A stretch of DNA of 64,000 nucleotides from Streptomyces sp. JB150. GTDB taxonomy: Bacteria > Actinomycetota > Actinomycetes > Streptomycetales > Streptomycetaceae. Positions 20,417 to 27,306 of this stretch are shown here, one piece after another (within the stretch, counting starts at the first letter, position 1; each line of letters begins with the position of its first letter). The notes beneath the pieces were generated by a model. The model had not been told where the DNA came from. It saw only the letters and a list, made by a program, of their open reading frames with translations, and did no database searches. The DNA is taken from contig NZ_CP049780.1 in NCBI RefSeq assembly GCF_011193355.1, positions 6,423,798-6,487,797 of the forward strand, in the 5' to 3' direction. The position numbers and the translations under genes are program-made.

Positions 20417-21205
20417 TCAGGCGCAGCAGGTCCCGCCCGGCGCGCAGGCGCACCCCTGCGTTTCCCGCGGGGTGGACGGGGCGGACACCGCAGGTGCTGT
20501 GGCTGTGGCTGTGGCTGTGGCTGTGGCTGTGGCTGTGGCTGAGGCCGTGGGCGGGGCGCAGCAGCCCTCGCCGCGCCAGGCCGCCCGGCCTTCCCTGACG
20601 GCGACGGCGGCGATGGCGAGGGCGGCGAGCGGGTCGGCCCAGGACCAGCCCAGCGTGGCGTTGAGGAGCAGTCCGGCCAGCAGGGCGGCGAACAGGTAGG
20701 TGCACAGCAGGGTCTGCCGGGAGTCCGCGACCGCGCTGGCGGAGCCGAGGGCCCGCCCCGCCCGGCGCTGCGCGGCCGAGAGGAACGGCATGACGGCGAG
20801 GGAGAGCGCCGCGAGCACGATGCCGGTGACGGAGCGCTCGGCCGGCTCCGCGGTGCCCAGGAGGGCGCGTGCGGCGTCGACGGTGACGTAGGCGGCGAGG
20901 GCGTGGAAGGACACGGCGACGATCCGCAGCGCGCGGCGCTCGCGCGCCTGCCGGACGGCGTGGTCGCGGGCGGAGAACTGCCAGGCGACCGCGGCGGCGG
21001 AGGACACCTCGATCACCGAGTCCAGCCCGAAGCCGAGCAGGGCGGTGGACGAGGCGAGCGCGCCCGCGGTGAGGGCGACGGCCGCCTCGACGAGGTTGTA
21101 GGCGATGGTCGCGGCCACCAGCAGCCGGATGCGCCGGGTGAGCGCGTCACGGCGGTCCGGGCCGGTGCCGGGGGAGCCGACGGTGCGTGCGGGCCGCGCT
21201 GCCAT
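20417..21205 (-). CDS. Cation efflux (CDF-like) transporter with Cys-rich tail
   Basis: A 262-residue membrane protein with about six hydrophobic helices. The CDF-type signature is seen as LRLLVAATIAYNLVEAAVAL-like helix 1, then GFGLDSVIEVSSAAAV with the metal-site Asp, and WSWADPLAALAIAAVAVREG near the C-terminal helices. The cytoplasmic tail has a simple Ala-Thr repeat made by a GCTGTG hexanucleotide array and ends in the Cys-rich GCACAPGGTCCA, a likely metal-binding end. It starts 2 bp after the ArsR regulator stop, so regulator and pump form an operon. The metal cannot be assigned from sequence. Confidence 0.85.
   Translation of the reverse strand: MAARPARTVGSPGTGPDRRDALTRRIRLLVAATIAYNLVEAAVALTAGALASSTALLGFGLDSVIEVSSAAAVAWQFSARDHAVRQARERRALRIVAVSFHALAAYVTVDAARALLGTAEPAERSVTGIVLAALSLAVMPFLSAAQRRAGRALGSASAVADSRQTLLCTYLFAALLAGLLLNATLGWSWADPLAALAIAAVAVREGRAAWRGEGCCAPPTASATATATATATATATAPAVSAPSTPRETQGCACAPGGTCCA
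20496..20540. repeat. GCTGTG hexanucleotide microsatellite (about 7.5 copies)
   Basis: A pure (GCTGTG)n tract lies inside the transporter gene and encodes an Ala-Thr run on the minus strand. The 6-bp unit keeps the reading frame whatever the copy number. Confidence 0.95.
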
Positions 21206-21580: not shown

Positions 21581-21975
21581 CTGGATGTAAATGCCGAACG
21601 TGCCCGCTCCGTGCGGCAGTCGCCCTGCACGGGGGTGTCGACGGGCGCCGGAGTTGGCGAACCGCCTGGTTCTCACCGGTGGTTGACGACCGCAATGAGG
21701 TCTAGGCGCCGCTGGCGCGTGCACGGCCCTCCCGGCCGACGTGGCCGCCGAGCCTGCCGGTGCTCCCGTAACCCGCCCTCCTTCTCAGGTCGTTGGCGCA
21801 GTCCCGGACGATCTCGCCGGCTCATGGCTCACGAGGTCCGGGAAGTCCGCTCGTCAACTGACCGATCGTTGAAATGTTGAAGGGATGAAACAGGTTTTAA
21901 TCGGATGTTCTGCATGAAACGCCCCAATTCGGTCAACTGGGGAGGTGAAGGTAATCGCAAGCCTCAAGGGAGATG
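21581..21975. other. Intergenic region upstream of the unknown five-gene operon
   Basis: About 395 bp without a supported gene. From about 21855 to 21940 the base composition drops sharply toward A/T, with short repeats TCAACTGACCG, GTTGAAATGTTGAAG and GGTCAACTG. A regulated promoter for the downstream operon probably lies here. I could not identify convincing -35/-10 boxes. Confidence 0.45.
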
Positions 21976-22170
21976 ATGCAGGTGCCTTCCGTACACGAGA
22001 CCATCGAAGAAGTCATCGGAATCCAGGACACCGACATCGAAGCGGCCCTCGACCCGGTCGAGCCCGACGGTGTCTTCCGCGACAGCCGGGAGTGCGCCGC
22101 CCTGGCGCTGGAAGGCGGCGCGATCAAGCTGCTCCTGTCCCCGCCCACCCCTCGCCCCAAGAAGGGCTGA
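21976..22170 (+). CDS. Small acidic-leader peptide, possible RiPP precursor
   Basis: A peptide of 62-65 residues depending on the start (ATG 21973, ATG 21976 or GTG 21982). The ribosome site AAGGGAG ends at 21972, so 21976 or 21982 is better spaced than 21973. The first ~35 residues are acidic and helical (HETIEEVIGIQDTDIEAALD, then PVEPDG). The middle holds a single Cys (DSRECAALALEGG) and the end is short and basic (AIKLLLSPPTPRPKKG). This polarity resembles leader-plus-core peptides of ribosomal natural products. It is followed after 21 bp by four overlapping genes. No known precursor family is recognised, so the function is inference. Confidence 0.6.
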   Translation: MQVPSVHETIEEVIGIQDTDIEAALDPVEPDGVFRDSRECAALALEGGAIKLLLSPPTPRPKKG

Positions 22171-22191
22171 GCGACTCAGGAGAGCAGCTGA

Positions 22192-22902
22192 ATGGAGCAA
22201 TCAGGCACTTCGGCCCTCTTGCAGGGCGCAGTGCAGGAGCTCGCCTCTGGTGTGGTCTCCGCCCTCCGTGGCGGAGACCACGTCACCGTATCGGGCCCCG
22301 AAGCACCGGAGGTCCCCGAGGCGGGCCTCTCCCTTCCGGCCGTACGCGTGCTGGGCGCGGACCTGCTGCTGCCGCAGGTGCTCTCCCGCACCCTGCCGGA
22401 CATGGCGCAACTCGCCGTGTTCCGCAAGGCCGTGGAGAGCTTCCCGCCCCGACCCGACGCGACTCCCGCCGTGCGCTGGAGCCACTGGGCCATGCGCCGC
22501 ACCCTGCGGCGCTTCGAGGCCGCGCCGGACGGCGTCCTCCCCGGTGACCGGGCCCAGGAGCCCGGCGCCTCCTGGCTGGACGGCGCCTCCTGGCAGTTCC
22601 TCACACACCAGCTGGCCGTGCTCGCCCCGCTCGCTCTGCCGGGTGAGGACTGCGCGGTCTGCGAGGCCGCCCGCCGCCGCCCCGTCGACGTGGCCCGCGG
22701 CTTCGTCCGCGCGGTGCGCCGCAGGGACTGGCAGCAGGCCGCCGGGGCCGGACGCTGGCTCACCCTGCTCGACGGGGTGCCACCGGAGCTGGGCCTGGAG
22801 GCCGGGCTGGACTTCGTGGAGCTGATGGGCGGCACCGATCCGCGCGTCGCGCTCCAGGTCGAGGCGGCCCGGGTGATGCGCGCGACCGGAGCCCGCGTAT
22901 GA
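22192..22902 (+). CDS. Hypothetical protein of the unknown five-gene operon
   Basis: A 236-residue soluble protein, predicted mostly helical from its Leu/Ala/Arg pattern. Notable segments are GGDHVTVSGPEAPEVPEAGL near the N-terminus, RWSHWAMRRTLRRFEAAPDG, and a CxxC-containing stretch LPGEDCAVCEAARRRPVDVA that could bind metal. No known domain is recognised. It starts 21 bp after the small peptide gene and overlaps the next gene by ATGA, so it is co-translated with the paralogue pair. A scaffold or peptide-binding role would fit the context but is not shown. Confidence 0.72.
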   Translation: MEQSGTSALLQGAVQELASGVVSALRGGDHVTVSGPEAPEVPEAGLSLPAVRVLGADLLLPQVLSRTLPDMAQLAVFRKAVESFPPRPDATPAVRWSHWAMRRTLRRFEAAPDGVLPGDRAQEPGASWLDGASWQFLTHQLAVLAPLALPGEDCAVCEAARRRPVDVARGFVRAVRRRDWQQAAGAGRWLTLLDGVPPELGLEAGLDFVELMGGTDPRVALQVEAARVMRATGARV

Positions 22903-23906
22903 CGGCCGCGCCCGCGGGGGCGACCCGGGACACCCGGCGCATCCGGGACACGCAGTCCGCCGCGCTCGCGTGGCTGTCCGCGCACCGTGGCGAGTTCGCC
23001 CTCGGCGAGGACGCCCTCGACCCCGACTGCCAGGTCAACTTCACCTGGAAGCCGCTCGGCGAACTCGCCCAGGTCTGCGCGACCGTACGGCTGCACACCC
23101 CGCCCACCGACCCGCTGCACGCCCAGGCCGGTGACCTGCTGCGGTTCGCCTGGGAACAGACCGACCACGGCGGGCTGTTCGTGGAACTGCAACGCCTCGA
23201 ACCCTTCGCCACCTACCCGCTGGAGATCTACTCCGTCTTCGCCGCGGCGGGCCTGCGCCACCCCGGCTACGAGGCCGCCGCCGCGACTGTCGCCCGCAGC
23301 CGGGGCTGGCGGCTCACCGAACAGGAGCCCACCCGCCGGCTGGGCGTGCTGCGCGCCGAACGGCGCAGCGGCATCCGGCGGCCCGAGGACGCCGCCCGTG
23401 TCCTGCGCTCCACCTGGCTCGGCGGGCGCGCCGAACCCTGGGCGTTCGAACGCGCCGCCGGCTACTCGCTCACCCACGTGGTCTTCCACCTCACCGACTG
23501 GGGCCACGACCCCCAGGGCGTCCCCGCCGACCTCGCCGGCTACCTGGCCGACTGGCTGCCGCCCTGGCTGGACACCTGCCTGGACGCCGGGATGTGGGAC
23601 CTGAGCTGCGAACTGCTCGTCGTCGCCGCCAGCCTCCCCGGAGGCCCGGACGCGGCGCTGCTGACGGACTCCTGGGCGCGGCTCGCGCCGGCGCAGTACG
23701 CGTCGGGCGCCCTGCCCGAGGAGGAACCGGACCGCGGCGCGGACGGCGGACGCGGCCCCGAACCCGACTTCCCGCACTGCTACCACTCCACCCTCATGGC
23801 CGCCTTCGCGGCGGCCCTGACCCTCGCGCGCCTCCCCGCGGACGCGGCGGCCGGGGCGCCCGGTGCCACGGCGCACCGGTACGGCGGACAAGGAGTGCCC
23901 GGATGA
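22899..23906 (+). CDS. DUF6895-like helical protein (paralogue A)
   Basis: A 335-residue protein. It shares several blocks with the next gene product: an N-terminal ALAWLSAHRGEF helix, a KPLGELAQVC segment, PTRRLGVL, the conserved VVFHLTDWG motif, a Trp-rich LADWLPPWLDTCLD helix, and YHSTLMAAFAAAL near the end. The repeated helix pairs suggest an alpha/alpha barrel-like fold. The family appears to be of unknown function; I assign DUF6895 from memory of its pattern. It overlaps both neighbours by four bases. The conserved His and Asp in FHLTDWG and the His in the YHxTL block could form an active or binding site (inference). Confidence 0.7.
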   Translation: MTAAPAGATRDTRRIRDTQSAALAWLSAHRGEFALGEDALDPDCQVNFTWKPLGELAQVCATVRLHTPPTDPLHAQAGDLLRFAWEQTDHGGLFVELQRLEPFATYPLEIYSVFAAAGLRHPGYEAAAATVARSRGWRLTEQEPTRRLGVLRAERRSGIRRPEDAARVLRSTWLGGRAEPWAFERAAGYSLTHVVFHLTDWGHDPQGVPADLAGYLADWLPPWLDTCLDAGMWDLSCELLVVAASLPGGPDAALLTDSWARLAPAQYASGALPEEEPDRGADGGRGPEPDFPHCYHSTLMAAFAAALTLARLPADAAAGAPGATAHRYGGQGVPG

Positions 23907-24823
23907 CCGCCACCCGACTCATCCACACCGTGGGCGTCCGCGCCCTCGAATGGCTCTGGGCCCACCGCGACGGGTTCCGTCTGGAAGTCGACGTCGACCC
24001 GGAAGTGGGCTTCCTCGAGCGGTTCAAGCCGATCGGCGAACTGGCCCTGATCTGCAAGGTGCTGCTCCGTGAGGGCGTCGCCGGGTCACGCCAGGCCGAG
24101 CTGGCCCGCCGGCTGCTCGACCACACCTGGCGCGACACCCTCGACGGCGGCCGGATGCTGGTGCGCGGCCAGCGCATCGAGCCGGTCTCCCCCATCCCCT
24201 TCGAGGTGTACCTCGCCTACAAGGAACTCGGCTACAGCCAGCCCGAGGTCGAGCGCGCCACCGTCCTCAACCACCGGCTGGAGAGCTGGACGTCCTACGA
24301 GGTCACGCCGACCCGCCGGCTCGGCCTGTCCGCGTTCCAGCGCCGCTTCGGCCTCACCCCCCGCCCGCCGGAAGCCGACCTGGTGGACACCACCTGGCTG
24401 GCCCGCACCCCCGAGCCGTGGACGGTCACCGCGCGCATCGCCTACGACTTCACCCACACCGTCTTCCACCTCACCGACTGGGGCGAGCGGCCCGAGGGCC
24501 TGCCGCCCCGCCTCGCCGACTACCTGGCCACCTGGCTGCCGGTGTGGATCGACGACTGGCTGGACCTCGAACGCTGGGACCTGCTCGGCGAACTCCTCGT
24601 CGTCGACGCCTGCCTGCCCCGGCCCACCTTCGACGAGCGGGCCTGGGAGAAGTTCGCCGCGGTCCAGCAGCCCGACGGCGCCATGCCCGCCGTGCGGGAG
24701 ATGCCCGAGGGCGACCCCGACGAGGTCTTCGACATCGTCTACCACCCCACCCTGGTCGCCGCCTTCGCCTCCGTGATGGCCACATCCCGCGCCCTCACCG
24801 AGCTGGCGCAGCCGGCGACATGA
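23903..24823 (+). CDS. DUF6895-like helical protein (paralogue B)
   Basis: A 306-residue paralogue of the preceding product. Matching blocks are RALEWLWAHRDGFRLE, FKPIGELALICKVLL, PTRRLGLSAFQRRFG, TVFHLTDWGERPEGLP, LADYLATWLPVWIDDWLD, and YHPTLVAAFASVMATS. Paralogue A has extra C-terminal sequence that this copy lacks. Side-by-side paralogues with four-base overlaps suggest a heterodimer or two sequential steps on one substrate. No signal peptide or membrane segment is present, so the protein is probably cytoplasmic. Confidence 0.7.
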   Translation: MTATRLIHTVGVRALEWLWAHRDGFRLEVDVDPEVGFLERFKPIGELALICKVLLREGVAGSRQAELARRLLDHTWRDTLDGGRMLVRGQRIEPVSPIPFEVYLAYKELGYSQPEVERATVLNHRLESWTSYEVTPTRRLGLSAFQRRFGLTPRPPEADLVDTTWLARTPEPWTVTARIAYDFTHTVFHLTDWGERPEGLPPRLADYLATWLPVWIDDWLDLERWDLLGELLVVDACLPRPTFDERAWEKFAAVQQPDGAMPAVREMPEGDPDEVFDIVYHPTLVAAFASVMATSRALTELAQPAT

Positions 24824-25914
24824 GCGCACCGGACGAGAGGAGCGAGCCGGACATGTACTGGCCGGGCGAGGAATCCGGCGTGGGCAGCGCCTCGGGCACG
24901 CCCCCCGCGGCAACCTCCGCCACGGACGACGCGGCGCTGCGGGAGCGGCTCGCGGCGGCCGTCGACGCCGTCGACGCGCCCGACGCCGTCTTCGCCGTCT
25001 CCCGGGGCGGCCGGCGCGTCCAGCACTGCGGCGGCACCGCCCCGCCGCCCCCCGTACCGCGGGAGGACCTGCGCTACGAGATCGGCTCGGCCTCGAAGGC
25101 GTTCGCCGGACTGCTGCTCGTCCAGCTGACCCGGCGCGGCCTGCTGACCGGCGGCGAGCCGGCCGCCGCCTGCCTCGATCCGGACCGCCTCCCCGGCCCG
25201 CACCCGGTGACGCTCGCCCACCTCGTCACCCACACCTCCGGGCTGCCCAACCTGCCGCGCGACTTCTACCTGCGCGGCCTGCCCGCCTGGCGCACCAACC
25301 CGTACGCCCGCTACCCGGCCGACCGGGTCACCGACGCCTTCCTGCGCCACCGGCCGCGCCACCGGCCCGGCACCCGGTGGCGGTACTCCAACTTCGGGGT
25401 CGCCGTGTTCGGACAGGCGGTCGCGGCGGCGACCGGCACCTCCTGGGAGGAGCTGCTCACCGCGCACGTGCTCGGCCCGCTCGGACTGCGCGGCACCGCG
25501 CTGCGCGCCGAGGACCCGAAGACCGACGCCGCCGGGCACGGCGCGGACGGCCGTACGCCGGTGCCCCCGTTCGATGCGGGCGGCTTCACGGCGGCGGGCG
25601 CGCTGCGCGCCACCCCGCACGATCTGCTGACCTTCCTCGAAGCCCACCTCGACCCGGAGGGCGTGCCGGGCGCGGTGCGCACACCGGTGCTCCAGCGCGG
25701 TCTGGGGCACCGGCATGTGCACACCGTGTCCTGGTTCCGGCATCCGACGCCGGGCGGGCCGCTGTACTTCCACAGCGGCGCCACCCTCGGCCAGCAGGCC
25801 TTCATCGGCTTCCGGCCCGACACCGGCACGGCCCTGGCCGCGGTGTGCACCCGCCGGTTCCGGCACCGCGACCCGTTCGTCACCACGGCGTACGGGATCC
25901 TCGCGGAGCCGTGA
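24820..25914 (+). CDS. Serine hydrolase, class C beta-lactamase/DD-peptidase fold
   Basis: A 364-residue protein of the beta-lactamase superfamily. The SxxK motif is in EIGSASKAFAGLLL, the YxN motif in RYSNFGVAVFGQ, and the third motif in YFHSGATLGQQ. Family members hydrolyse peptides, esters or beta-lactams through an acyl-serine intermediate. Unlike exported penicillin-binding proteins it has no signal peptide, so it should act in the cytoplasm. The ATG overlaps the upstream stop (ATGA) and the gene ends the operon. In the context of a peptide gene it could be a leader protease or a tailoring hydrolase (inference). Confidence 0.82.
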   Translation: MSAPDERSEPDMYWPGEESGVGSASGTPPAATSATDDAALRERLAAAVDAVDAPDAVFAVSRGGRRVQHCGGTAPPPPVPREDLRYEIGSASKAFAGLLLVQLTRRGLLTGGEPAAACLDPDRLPGPHPVTLAHLVTHTSGLPNLPRDFYLRGLPAWRTNPYARYPADRVTDAFLRHRPRHRPGTRWRYSNFGVAVFGQAVAAATGTSWEELLTAHVLGPLGLRGTALRAEDPKTDAAGHGADGRTPVPPFDAGGFTAAGALRATPHDLLTFLEAHLDPEGVPGAVRTPVLQRGLGHRHVHTVSWFRHPTPGGPLYFHSGATLGQQAFIGFRPDTGTALAAVCTRRFRHRDPFVTTAYGILAEP

Positions 25915-25932: not shown

Positions 25933-27306
25933 TTACAGCCGCTGCCAGAGCGCGGGCGTCGTGTCGGGCGCCCACGCGCCCTGCGCCTGGTGCCGCTGGA
26001 GGCACTGGTAGCGCACGCCGGCGACGGTCACGGTGGCCCCCACCTCGTAGACCCGGCCGGACTTCCACGCGTCCGCCGCGGTGCCGTCCTGCGGAGCGGG
26101 CGCGGACTGCTGCGACGCCGTCGTCAGGGTGAGGCCGAAGTCGCCGAGGATCGGGTTGACCGGCTGGTAGAACGTCGTGCCGCCCTCGGTGCAGTTGCCG
26201 CTGCCGCCGGAGGTGACGCCCTGCGCCTGGACGCCCGCCACGTACGGGCCGCCGGAGTCGCCGGGCTCGGCGCACACCGTGGTCTGGGTGAGGCCGTCGA
26301 CGGTGCCCTCGGCGTAGCTGACGCTGACCTCGTGCTGTTCGATGGTGCCGCAGTGCCAGCCGGTGGTCGAGCCCGAACGGCACACCGACGCCCCGACCAG
26401 CGCCTCGACCGACCCGGCGACCTGCACCTTCTGGCCGCCCTCGCCCTTCACGTCCGGGGTCGCGGTCCAGTTCGCGTTGACGGCCACATGCGCCATGTCC
26501 TTGCCGGGGAACGTGGAGGCCTGGAACGTGCCCTGGTCGGCCTGGTTGAAGCCGGTGGTCTTCGCGCCCGCCTTGCCGCAGTGGCCGGCGGTGACGAAGC
26601 CCTGCTGCTGGTCCTTGGTGACGGAGAAGCCGACGGAGCAGCGGGCGGCGCCGTCGATGTAGAAGGCATCACCACCGGTGATGTTCTCGAACAGCCGCGG
26701 CCGGTTCGCCGTCACCCGGACGGCGACCTGTTCCGCACGGAGCCCGGCGGCCGACACGAACGCGGCCCCGGACGCCTGGTCCACGGCCTCCAGCACCACC
26801 CGGTTGCCCGGCACGTCGACGTACCACGTCGGGGAGTCGCGCGTGTCGTACAGGATGTCCGTGCTGTCCAGCCGCGCCTTCACGGCCCGCAGGGCGGCCA
26901 GGGTGTGCGTGACGACCACGGCCTTCGCGCCCTCGGCCTCGATGGCGGGCACGTCCTCGGCGTTGGTGGTCGCCACGGTCAGCTCGCCGGCCACCGGGCC
27001 GCGCAGCCAGGCGCCGGCGAACCGCTCGCCGAGCGCGTTGCGCAGCCTGCCCGCGCGCGCCCCGGCCTCCGCCTCGTTGACCAGCCGCTCCCGCGCCTGC
27101 GTCGACGTCAGCCTCAGGTCCCGCTGCAGCGCGAGGAGCACCTGCTGCGACGGCTTGTCGGCACCGAGGGTCTGGGCCGCCGTGGCGACGGAACCGGCGG
27201 AGGGCTCCGGATCGGCCGCCTCGGCCGTGGGGATCGCGGCGAGGACGAGCGCGCCGAGCACGGTGAGCGCGGCCCCGTGCCGGGCAACGGTGTGTCTGTG
27301 GGCCAT
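25933..27306 (-). CDS. sprC: Streptogrisin C-like secreted serine protease with chitin-binding tail
   Basis: A 457-residue S1 family endopeptidase. It has a Sec signal peptide (ALTVLGALVLAAIPTAEA), an alpha-lytic-protease-type pro-region of ~170 residues, then the mature domain starting near residue 200 (ITGGDAFYIDGAARCSVGFSV). The triad is visible as His in VTAGHCGKAG, Asp in FPGKDMAHVAVN and Ser in AEPGDSGGPYV. A short linker (QSAPAPQDGT) leads to a C-terminal CBM5/12 module (AWKSGRVYEVGATVTVAG, then YQCLQRHQAQGAWAP). Length and domain order match streptogrisin C. It acts outside the cell on protein, perhaps at chitin surfaces. The gene converges on the serine hydrolase, 18 bp away. Confidence 0.92.
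   Translation of the reverse strand: MAHRHTVARHGAALTVLGALVLAAIPTAEAADPEPSAGSVATAAQTLGADKPSQQVLLALQRDLRLTSTQARERLVNEAEAGARAGRLRNALGERFAGAWLRGPVAGELTVATTNAEDVPAIEAEGAKAVVVTHTLAALRAVKARLDSTDILYDTRDSPTWYVDVPGNRVVLEAVDQASGAAFVSAAGLRAEQVAVRVTANRPRLFENITGGDAFYIDGAARCSVGFSVTKDQQQGFVTAGHCGKAGAKTTGFNQADQGTFQASTFPGKDMAHVAVNANWTATPDVKGEGGQKVQVAGSVEALVGASVCRSGSTTGWHCGTIEQHEVSVSYAEGTVDGLTQTTVCAEPGDSGGPYVAGVQAQGVTSGGSGNCTEGGTTFYQPVNPILGDFGLTLTTASQQSAPAPQDGTAADAWKSGRVYEVGATVTVAGVRYQCLQRHQAQGAWAPDTTPALWQRL

Follow-up and report, generated by a model that had tools for sequence, protein, structure and literature searches.

A candidate ribosomal peptide pathway with paired DUF6895 proteins in Streptomyces sp. 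JB150

What might a short peptide gene be doing at the head of an operon whose other members are an orphan helical protein, two paralogues and a serine hydrolase? The question is raised by a 64,000-nucleotide stretch of Streptomyces sp. JB150 (contig NZ_CP049780.1, positions 6,423,798 to 6,487,797 of the forward strand), here called the window, to which all coordinates without a locus name refer. The five genes, designated A, B, C1, C2 and D, lie on its forward strand. We consider it likely that they constitute a pathway like those for ribosomally synthesized and post-translationally modified peptides (RiPPs). For the whole reading, in which an undescribed type of RiPP pathway epimerises A through C1 and C2 and then cuts the epimerised peptide with D, we see the chances as evenly balanced.

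Five genes conserved together as one coupled unit

All five open reading frames were found where the preliminary description had placed them, and the layout that it proposed is present in full: after the peptide come a helical orphan, the paralogous pair and an S12 hydrolase that looks cytoplasmic. A gap of 21 nt separates A (21982..22170) from B (22192..22902). The last four genes are joined, as had been described, by ATGA overlaps at 22899 (B/C1), 23903 (C1/C2) and 24820 (C2/D). The promoter region is indeed unusually AT-rich. The 114 bp 5' of the A frame (21859..21972, ending in the ribosome-binding site GGGAG at 21968-21972) are 51.8% AT compared with 26.4% for the window, a value equalled by 0.06% of 114-bp stretches.

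Related loci were compared using the best 80 of 180, from named genomes. The 7-mer TGTTGAA lies 5' of A in 53 of them. A and B are present in all 80, C1 and C2 in 77 each and D in 74, one of these D matches (L108) being weak and not in the usual order. The positions of the missing genes place them at contig ends, with one exception: L041 retains A and a shortened form of B, has no C1, C2 or D, and has the neighbouring protease next after B. All three ATGA junctions occur in 56 of the 72 loci with all five genes called, and the coupling of D to C2 is present in most loci. When three representative loci were searched against 65 full-length ones, A and B turned up in all 65, C1 and C2 each in 64 and D in 62-63; a convergent secreted protease was likewise recovered in 65. 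Upstream genes were recovered in at most 22. Of the downstream genes past the protease, a PhoD-like gene was recovered in 47 and the others in no more than 19. Given that the protease is also found without A to D elsewhere, the five genes behave like a single group that the protease adjoins without belonging to it.

The preliminary description depended on the peptide being conserved with the other genes, and a sample of 150 Streptomyces genomes, that of JB150 among them, bears this out. In this sample A-type peptides were matched 49 times in 48 genomes, or in 47 genomes if the marginal G036 is set aside, and 48 of the 49 matches lie 752-1169 bp upstream of a same-strand gene of DUF6895, the family of C1 and C2. 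The lone match without such a gene is the weakest one (G036, E 4e-4). The genes for A, B, the two DUF6895 proteins and the S12 hydrolase form a single, translationally coupled unit that is conserved jointly. A short encoded precursor that is co-conserved with enzymes, one of the features by which RiPP pathways are recognized, is therefore found here.

Peptide A and its hypervariable island

The open frame of A comprises 65 codons from ATG 21973. GGGAG abuts this ATG, lies 3 nt from ATG 21976 and lies 9 nt from GTG 21982, with which the MPS... start of the relatives aligns. Based on this spacing and alignment, the putative precursor peptide probably starts at GTG 21982 and is 62 aa long, rather than the ~64 residues first proposed; both the acidic stretch and the basic, Pro-rich terminus (LLLSPPTPRPKKG) of the earlier description are present. 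A search with A found 321 database relatives (120 of which were listed), so A is not a chance frame.

The ratio of nonsynonymous to synonymous variation (pN/pS) along A, from uncorrected counts in 78 codon-aligned, related sequences, is 0.32 up to the RD motif and 0.07 in RDSRECAALAL. It rises to 1.06 in seven codons (a six-residue island and one further codon) and falls to 0.01 in LLSPPTPRPKKG, the last 12 residues. A constant leader-like segment (DIEAALDPVEPDGVFRDSRECAALAL, 22033..22110) and an invariant follower-like tail (LLLSPPTPRPKKG, 22129..22167) thus enclose the hypervariable island (EGGAIK, 22111..22128), which is a candidate core or part of a core. Among 172 motif-fitting unique peptides the island has 78 distinct versions, all six residues long. 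It is rich in Gly, Ser, Thr and Ala and, in 468 positions, contains neither Pro nor Arg; about 62 and 74, respectively, would be expected from base composition. The island is variable yet does not drift freely. The pattern, in which conserved leader and follower parts flank a variable segment, is another recognized feature of RiPP precursors and looks as expected for a core between leader and follower. The preliminary description had proposed to look for a conserved leader with a variable core, and a pattern of that kind was found, with a fixed-length island as candidate core between near-invariant flanks. A variable core at the C-terminal end is not supported, since no part of A is more invariant than its last 12 residues.

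Some relatives depart from this plan. In type II peptides (L010, L021, L022, L025 and L028) the leader-like part and SPP are kept and a Leu-rich stretch replaces the island. One genome (G006, L143:5237-5814) has two tandem A-type peptides 5' of B. In another (G064, L152:5459-6361) the A frame is without its usual tail and continues into B, by either a real fusion or a sequencing error.

DUF6895 proteins, protein B and hydrolase D

C1 (22899..23906, 335 aa) and C2 (23903..24823, 306 aa) are 38% identical and, in agreement with the paralogy seen earlier, both match Pfam DUF6895 (PF21836). The matches have E 6.4e-86 and 288.7 bits for C1, and E 5.8e-84 and 282.3 bits for C2, compared with a curated cut-off of 23.8. 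The C2 model is an alpha/alpha toroid (predicted local distance difference test score, pLDDT, 91.5). According to its title, a study by Shi et al. (ACS Catal. 2026, doi 10.1021/acscatal.5c08590) reportedly concerns a DUF6895 epimerase in lasso peptide modification, so the earlier claim that the operon lacks any known class of RiPP enzyme does not stand. In C2 numbering, T184, H185, D226, E230 and H281 are kept in all aligned C1, C2, single-DUF, lanthipeptide-type and lasso rows. The candidate acid/base residues H185, D226, E230 and H281 are common to both window paralogues and the lasso-cluster member (L131). We think it somewhat more probable than the contrary that C1 and C2 are peptide epimerases.

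DUF6895 occurs in 141 of 249 Streptomycetaceae genomes. Of the 83 DUF6895 loci in the 150 genomes, 47 have an A-type peptide no more than 2.5 kb away and 15 are fetched operons with a single DUF6895 gene and an S12 gene. The rest are seven radical S-adenosylmethionine (SAM), two lanthipeptide-type and one lasso locus, three long fused DUF6895 proteins, one other (L120), four loci not fetched and three fragments or marginal matches. In all 15 fetched single-DUF operons a peptide lies 5' of B. These peptides mostly end PEAAG-(Leu/Ala-rich, variable length)-SPKEPKEPRGK, and L129 and L130 have another hydrophobic peptide. In the lasso-type cluster (L131:3899-7921) the DUF6895 gene overlaps a 105-aa B1-like gene, and a 42-aa precursor-like frame ends GWSGPTDDTFDGDWTP. 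In L140 and L141, which are class I lanthipeptide-type, DUF6895 adjoins LanB, LanC and ATP-binding cassette transporter genes and may be an epimerase; a motif scan of these two loci found no convincing LanA. The radical-SAM clusters (L133-L139, e.g., L133:4146-12914) combine a glycosyltransferase-like gene, a radical SAM gene with a DUF6895 gene on either side of it, and a major facilitator superfamily gene; six of the seven also have a prolyl oligopeptidase gene. A short frame, MPEN...EVVAH...GCIVNNSSDIS, is found in the five of these loci with gaps read, and the clusters are candidates for a second RiPP type.

Other arrangements were also observed. In L115, L123 and L132, DUF6895 is N-terminal in 544-593-aa proteins, which are preceded by a 65-83-aa protein (MSC...VDARKALDFL...AGYVLAWERYVLVVA) with no Pfam match in the one tested. 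In L120:6670-8086 an 84-aa frame containing LHILCCNEYGLVTEGNP precedes the DUF6895 protein, and no known RiPP enzyme was seen adjoining the DUF6895 gene.

B (236 aa) has no match in Pfam or NCBIfam, as expected from its earlier description as a novel protein, and its predicted structure is all-helical (pLDDT 87.4). Conserved in every one of the 80 loci, it is a candidate peptide-binding partner. No precursor-recognition domain (RiPP recognition element, RRE, or PqqD-like) was matched in B by Pfam. An RRE-type domain is not needed by every RiPP pathway.

It is conceivable that no modified product is made. A would then be a small protein within, or a regulator of, a complex of B, C1, C2 and D, its two binding motifs being joined by a loop under loose constraint. 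Conservation in A is highest in its leader-like segment and tail rather than in the island, the unit is without a transporter, and in G064 the A frame runs on into B, all of which would fit such a complex. However, a drifting linker would not be expected to hold to six residues in all 172 motif-fitting peptides or to avoid Pro and Arg. DUF6895 is found in three other kinds of RiPP cluster, and the single-DUF peptides carry Leu-rich tracts of variable length. We consider this explanation unlikely.

D (24820..25914) matches Pfam Beta-lactamase PF00144 (E 3e-52) and carries the three S12 motifs, SASK 90, YSN 189 and HSG 318. Among 94 relatives examined, SxxK is found in 92, YxN in 91 and HxG in 78. 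There is no signal-like N-terminus (a simple hydropathy measure gives 0.21 vs 2.37 for the adjoining secreted protease), and D looks cytoplasmic, in agreement with the SxxK/YxN serine hydrolase of the preliminary description. The best solved match is Pab87 (2qmi), which covers only residues 48-279 of D. Pab87 is described as degrading D-amino-acid peptides, and D-stereospecificity is said to fit most S12 proteases (PMC2651629). D is a candidate D-selective peptidase, with the balance leaning slightly the other way.

The adjoining protease (25933-27306, reverse strand) is a secreted S1 enzyme with an alpha-lytic prodomain and CBM5/12. It is convergent with the operon and adjoins it in 65 of 65 full-length loci. 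Six sampled genomes that gave no A match also carry the protease, at about 64-70% identity; A to D were beside it in none of the six (two of which have little sequence on that side). No S1 protease was seen beside the displayed type II or single-DUF operons.

The protease bears on another possibility, that a D-containing peptide is made and hydrolase D serves in self-resistance or turnover by destroying it in the cell, maturation being left to another protease such as the convergent S1 enzyme. D-stereospecific resistance peptidases are described for nonribosomal peptide clusters (PMC9231227); D is without a signal-like N-terminus, and the secreted protease gene is a constant neighbour. However, the protease also occurs in the six genomes without an A match and was not seen by the displayed type II and single-DUF operons, and the ATGA coupling of D to C2 in most loci favours a step within the pathway. 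This role for D seems rather improbable to us.

Elsewhere in the window, a hexanucleotide tandem repeat (GCTGTG, 9.2 copies, 20496-20550) lies within a cation diffusion facilitator (CDF) cation-efflux gene.

A possible epimerising pathway and its place among known systems

The RiPP-like reading is strengthened because A is co-conserved, because its island lies between constant parts and because DUF6895 occurs in lasso, lanthipeptide-type and radical-SAM clusters; the absence of a known RiPP enzyme class and a variable core at the C-terminal end are not supported. In the proposed mechanism, A would be made first, and B would bind it via its constant parts and present it. C1 and C2, as acid/base epimerases, would convert selected residues in the stretch that spans AALAL, the island and LLL into the D-form. 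Hydrolase D would recognize D-residues and cut at or beside them in the epimerised peptide. Such D-selective cutting would pull a reversible epimerisation forward. The lasso epimerase MslH, with two His/Asp pairs, is described as acting reversibly, with later enzymes fixing the outcome (PMC10406935); a D-selective peptidase coupled to the epimerases could play that part here.

Several points weigh against this reading. The toroid fold of DUF6895 equally fits terpene cyclases, lyases and glycosidases. E101, R138 and H189 are fixed in the DUF6895 clade of the S12 operons and differ in the lasso, lanthipeptide-type and radical-SAM rows, and so chemistry or substrate handling may differ between clades. 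Among the 13 radical-SAM rows, E230 is replaced by Lys in six and H281 by Gln in six, so some DUF6895 members need not be active. The S12 family also includes beta-lactamases and carboxypeptidases, B has no recognizable RiPP-recognition fold, and the island may be a loop rather than a core; in type II peptides a Leu-rich stretch takes its place. That C1 and C2 instead perform cyclisation, elimination or another acid/base step on the toroid, with D acting on a different amide or ester bond, is doubtful, as H185, D226, E230 and H281 are shared with the DUF6895 protein of the lasso cluster, the context of the reported epimerase.

A more specific form of the epimerisation reading, which we put forward as a long shot, is a ribosomal counterpart of gramicidin-type D/L peptides. 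Two sibling acid/base epimerases with different site preferences would convert residues of an Ala/Leu-rich stretch to the D-form, and a cytosolic S12 peptidase accepting only D-residues would release the product, proof-read it and drive the reversible epimerisation. The single-DUF subfamily, with its nearly poly-Leu cores, would then be the simplest version.

We found no description of the five-gene combination in the literature searched, the coverage of which was partial, and there is a real chance that the operon represents a new RiPP class. If the epimerisation reading is true, a type of peptide natural product has been overlooked in a heavily mined genus, and peptide epimerases that need no radical form a family whose natural substrates are spread over four kinds of cluster. 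It would also offer a testable idea, that a D-selective peptidase drives reversible epimerisation.

Among known systems, epipeptides (YydF/YydG type) are linear ribosomal peptides in which D-residues are the main change. The five-gene product would likewise be a linear ribosomal peptide with D-residues, but it would come from a different peptide and without a radical SAM epimerase. Three known cluster types were considered for the operon and rejected based on Pfam searches of the five proteins: an epipeptide or other radical-SAM epimerised peptide (no Radical_SAM domain), a class I lanthipeptide cluster (no LanB dehydratase or LanC cyclase domain) and a lasso cluster (no Asn-synthase-like cyclase or transglutaminase-like peptidase domain).

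One close parallel is the lasso system of Shi et al. (2026), insofar as its title describes it. It involves the same Pfam family, and H185, D226, E230 and H281 are shared with the DUF6895 protein of the L131 lasso cluster. The operon described here differs in having no lasso cyclase or B1/B2 gene, in its tandem DUF6895 pair with the clade-specific E101, R138 and H189, in its different peptide and in the added S12 hydrolase. What the proposed scheme has in common with MslH is acid/base epimerisation that acts on a ribosomal peptide while the leader is still attached. MslH has a calcineurin-like metallo fold (PMC10406935), whereas DUF6895 is an alpha/alpha toroid. Hydrolase D shares SxxK, YxN and HxG with Pab87 and is comparable to the S12 resistance peptidases of nonribosomal peptides (PMC2651629, PMC9231227). 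Apart from the partial extent of the Pab87 match, it differs from these D-peptidases in being coupled to putative epimerases.

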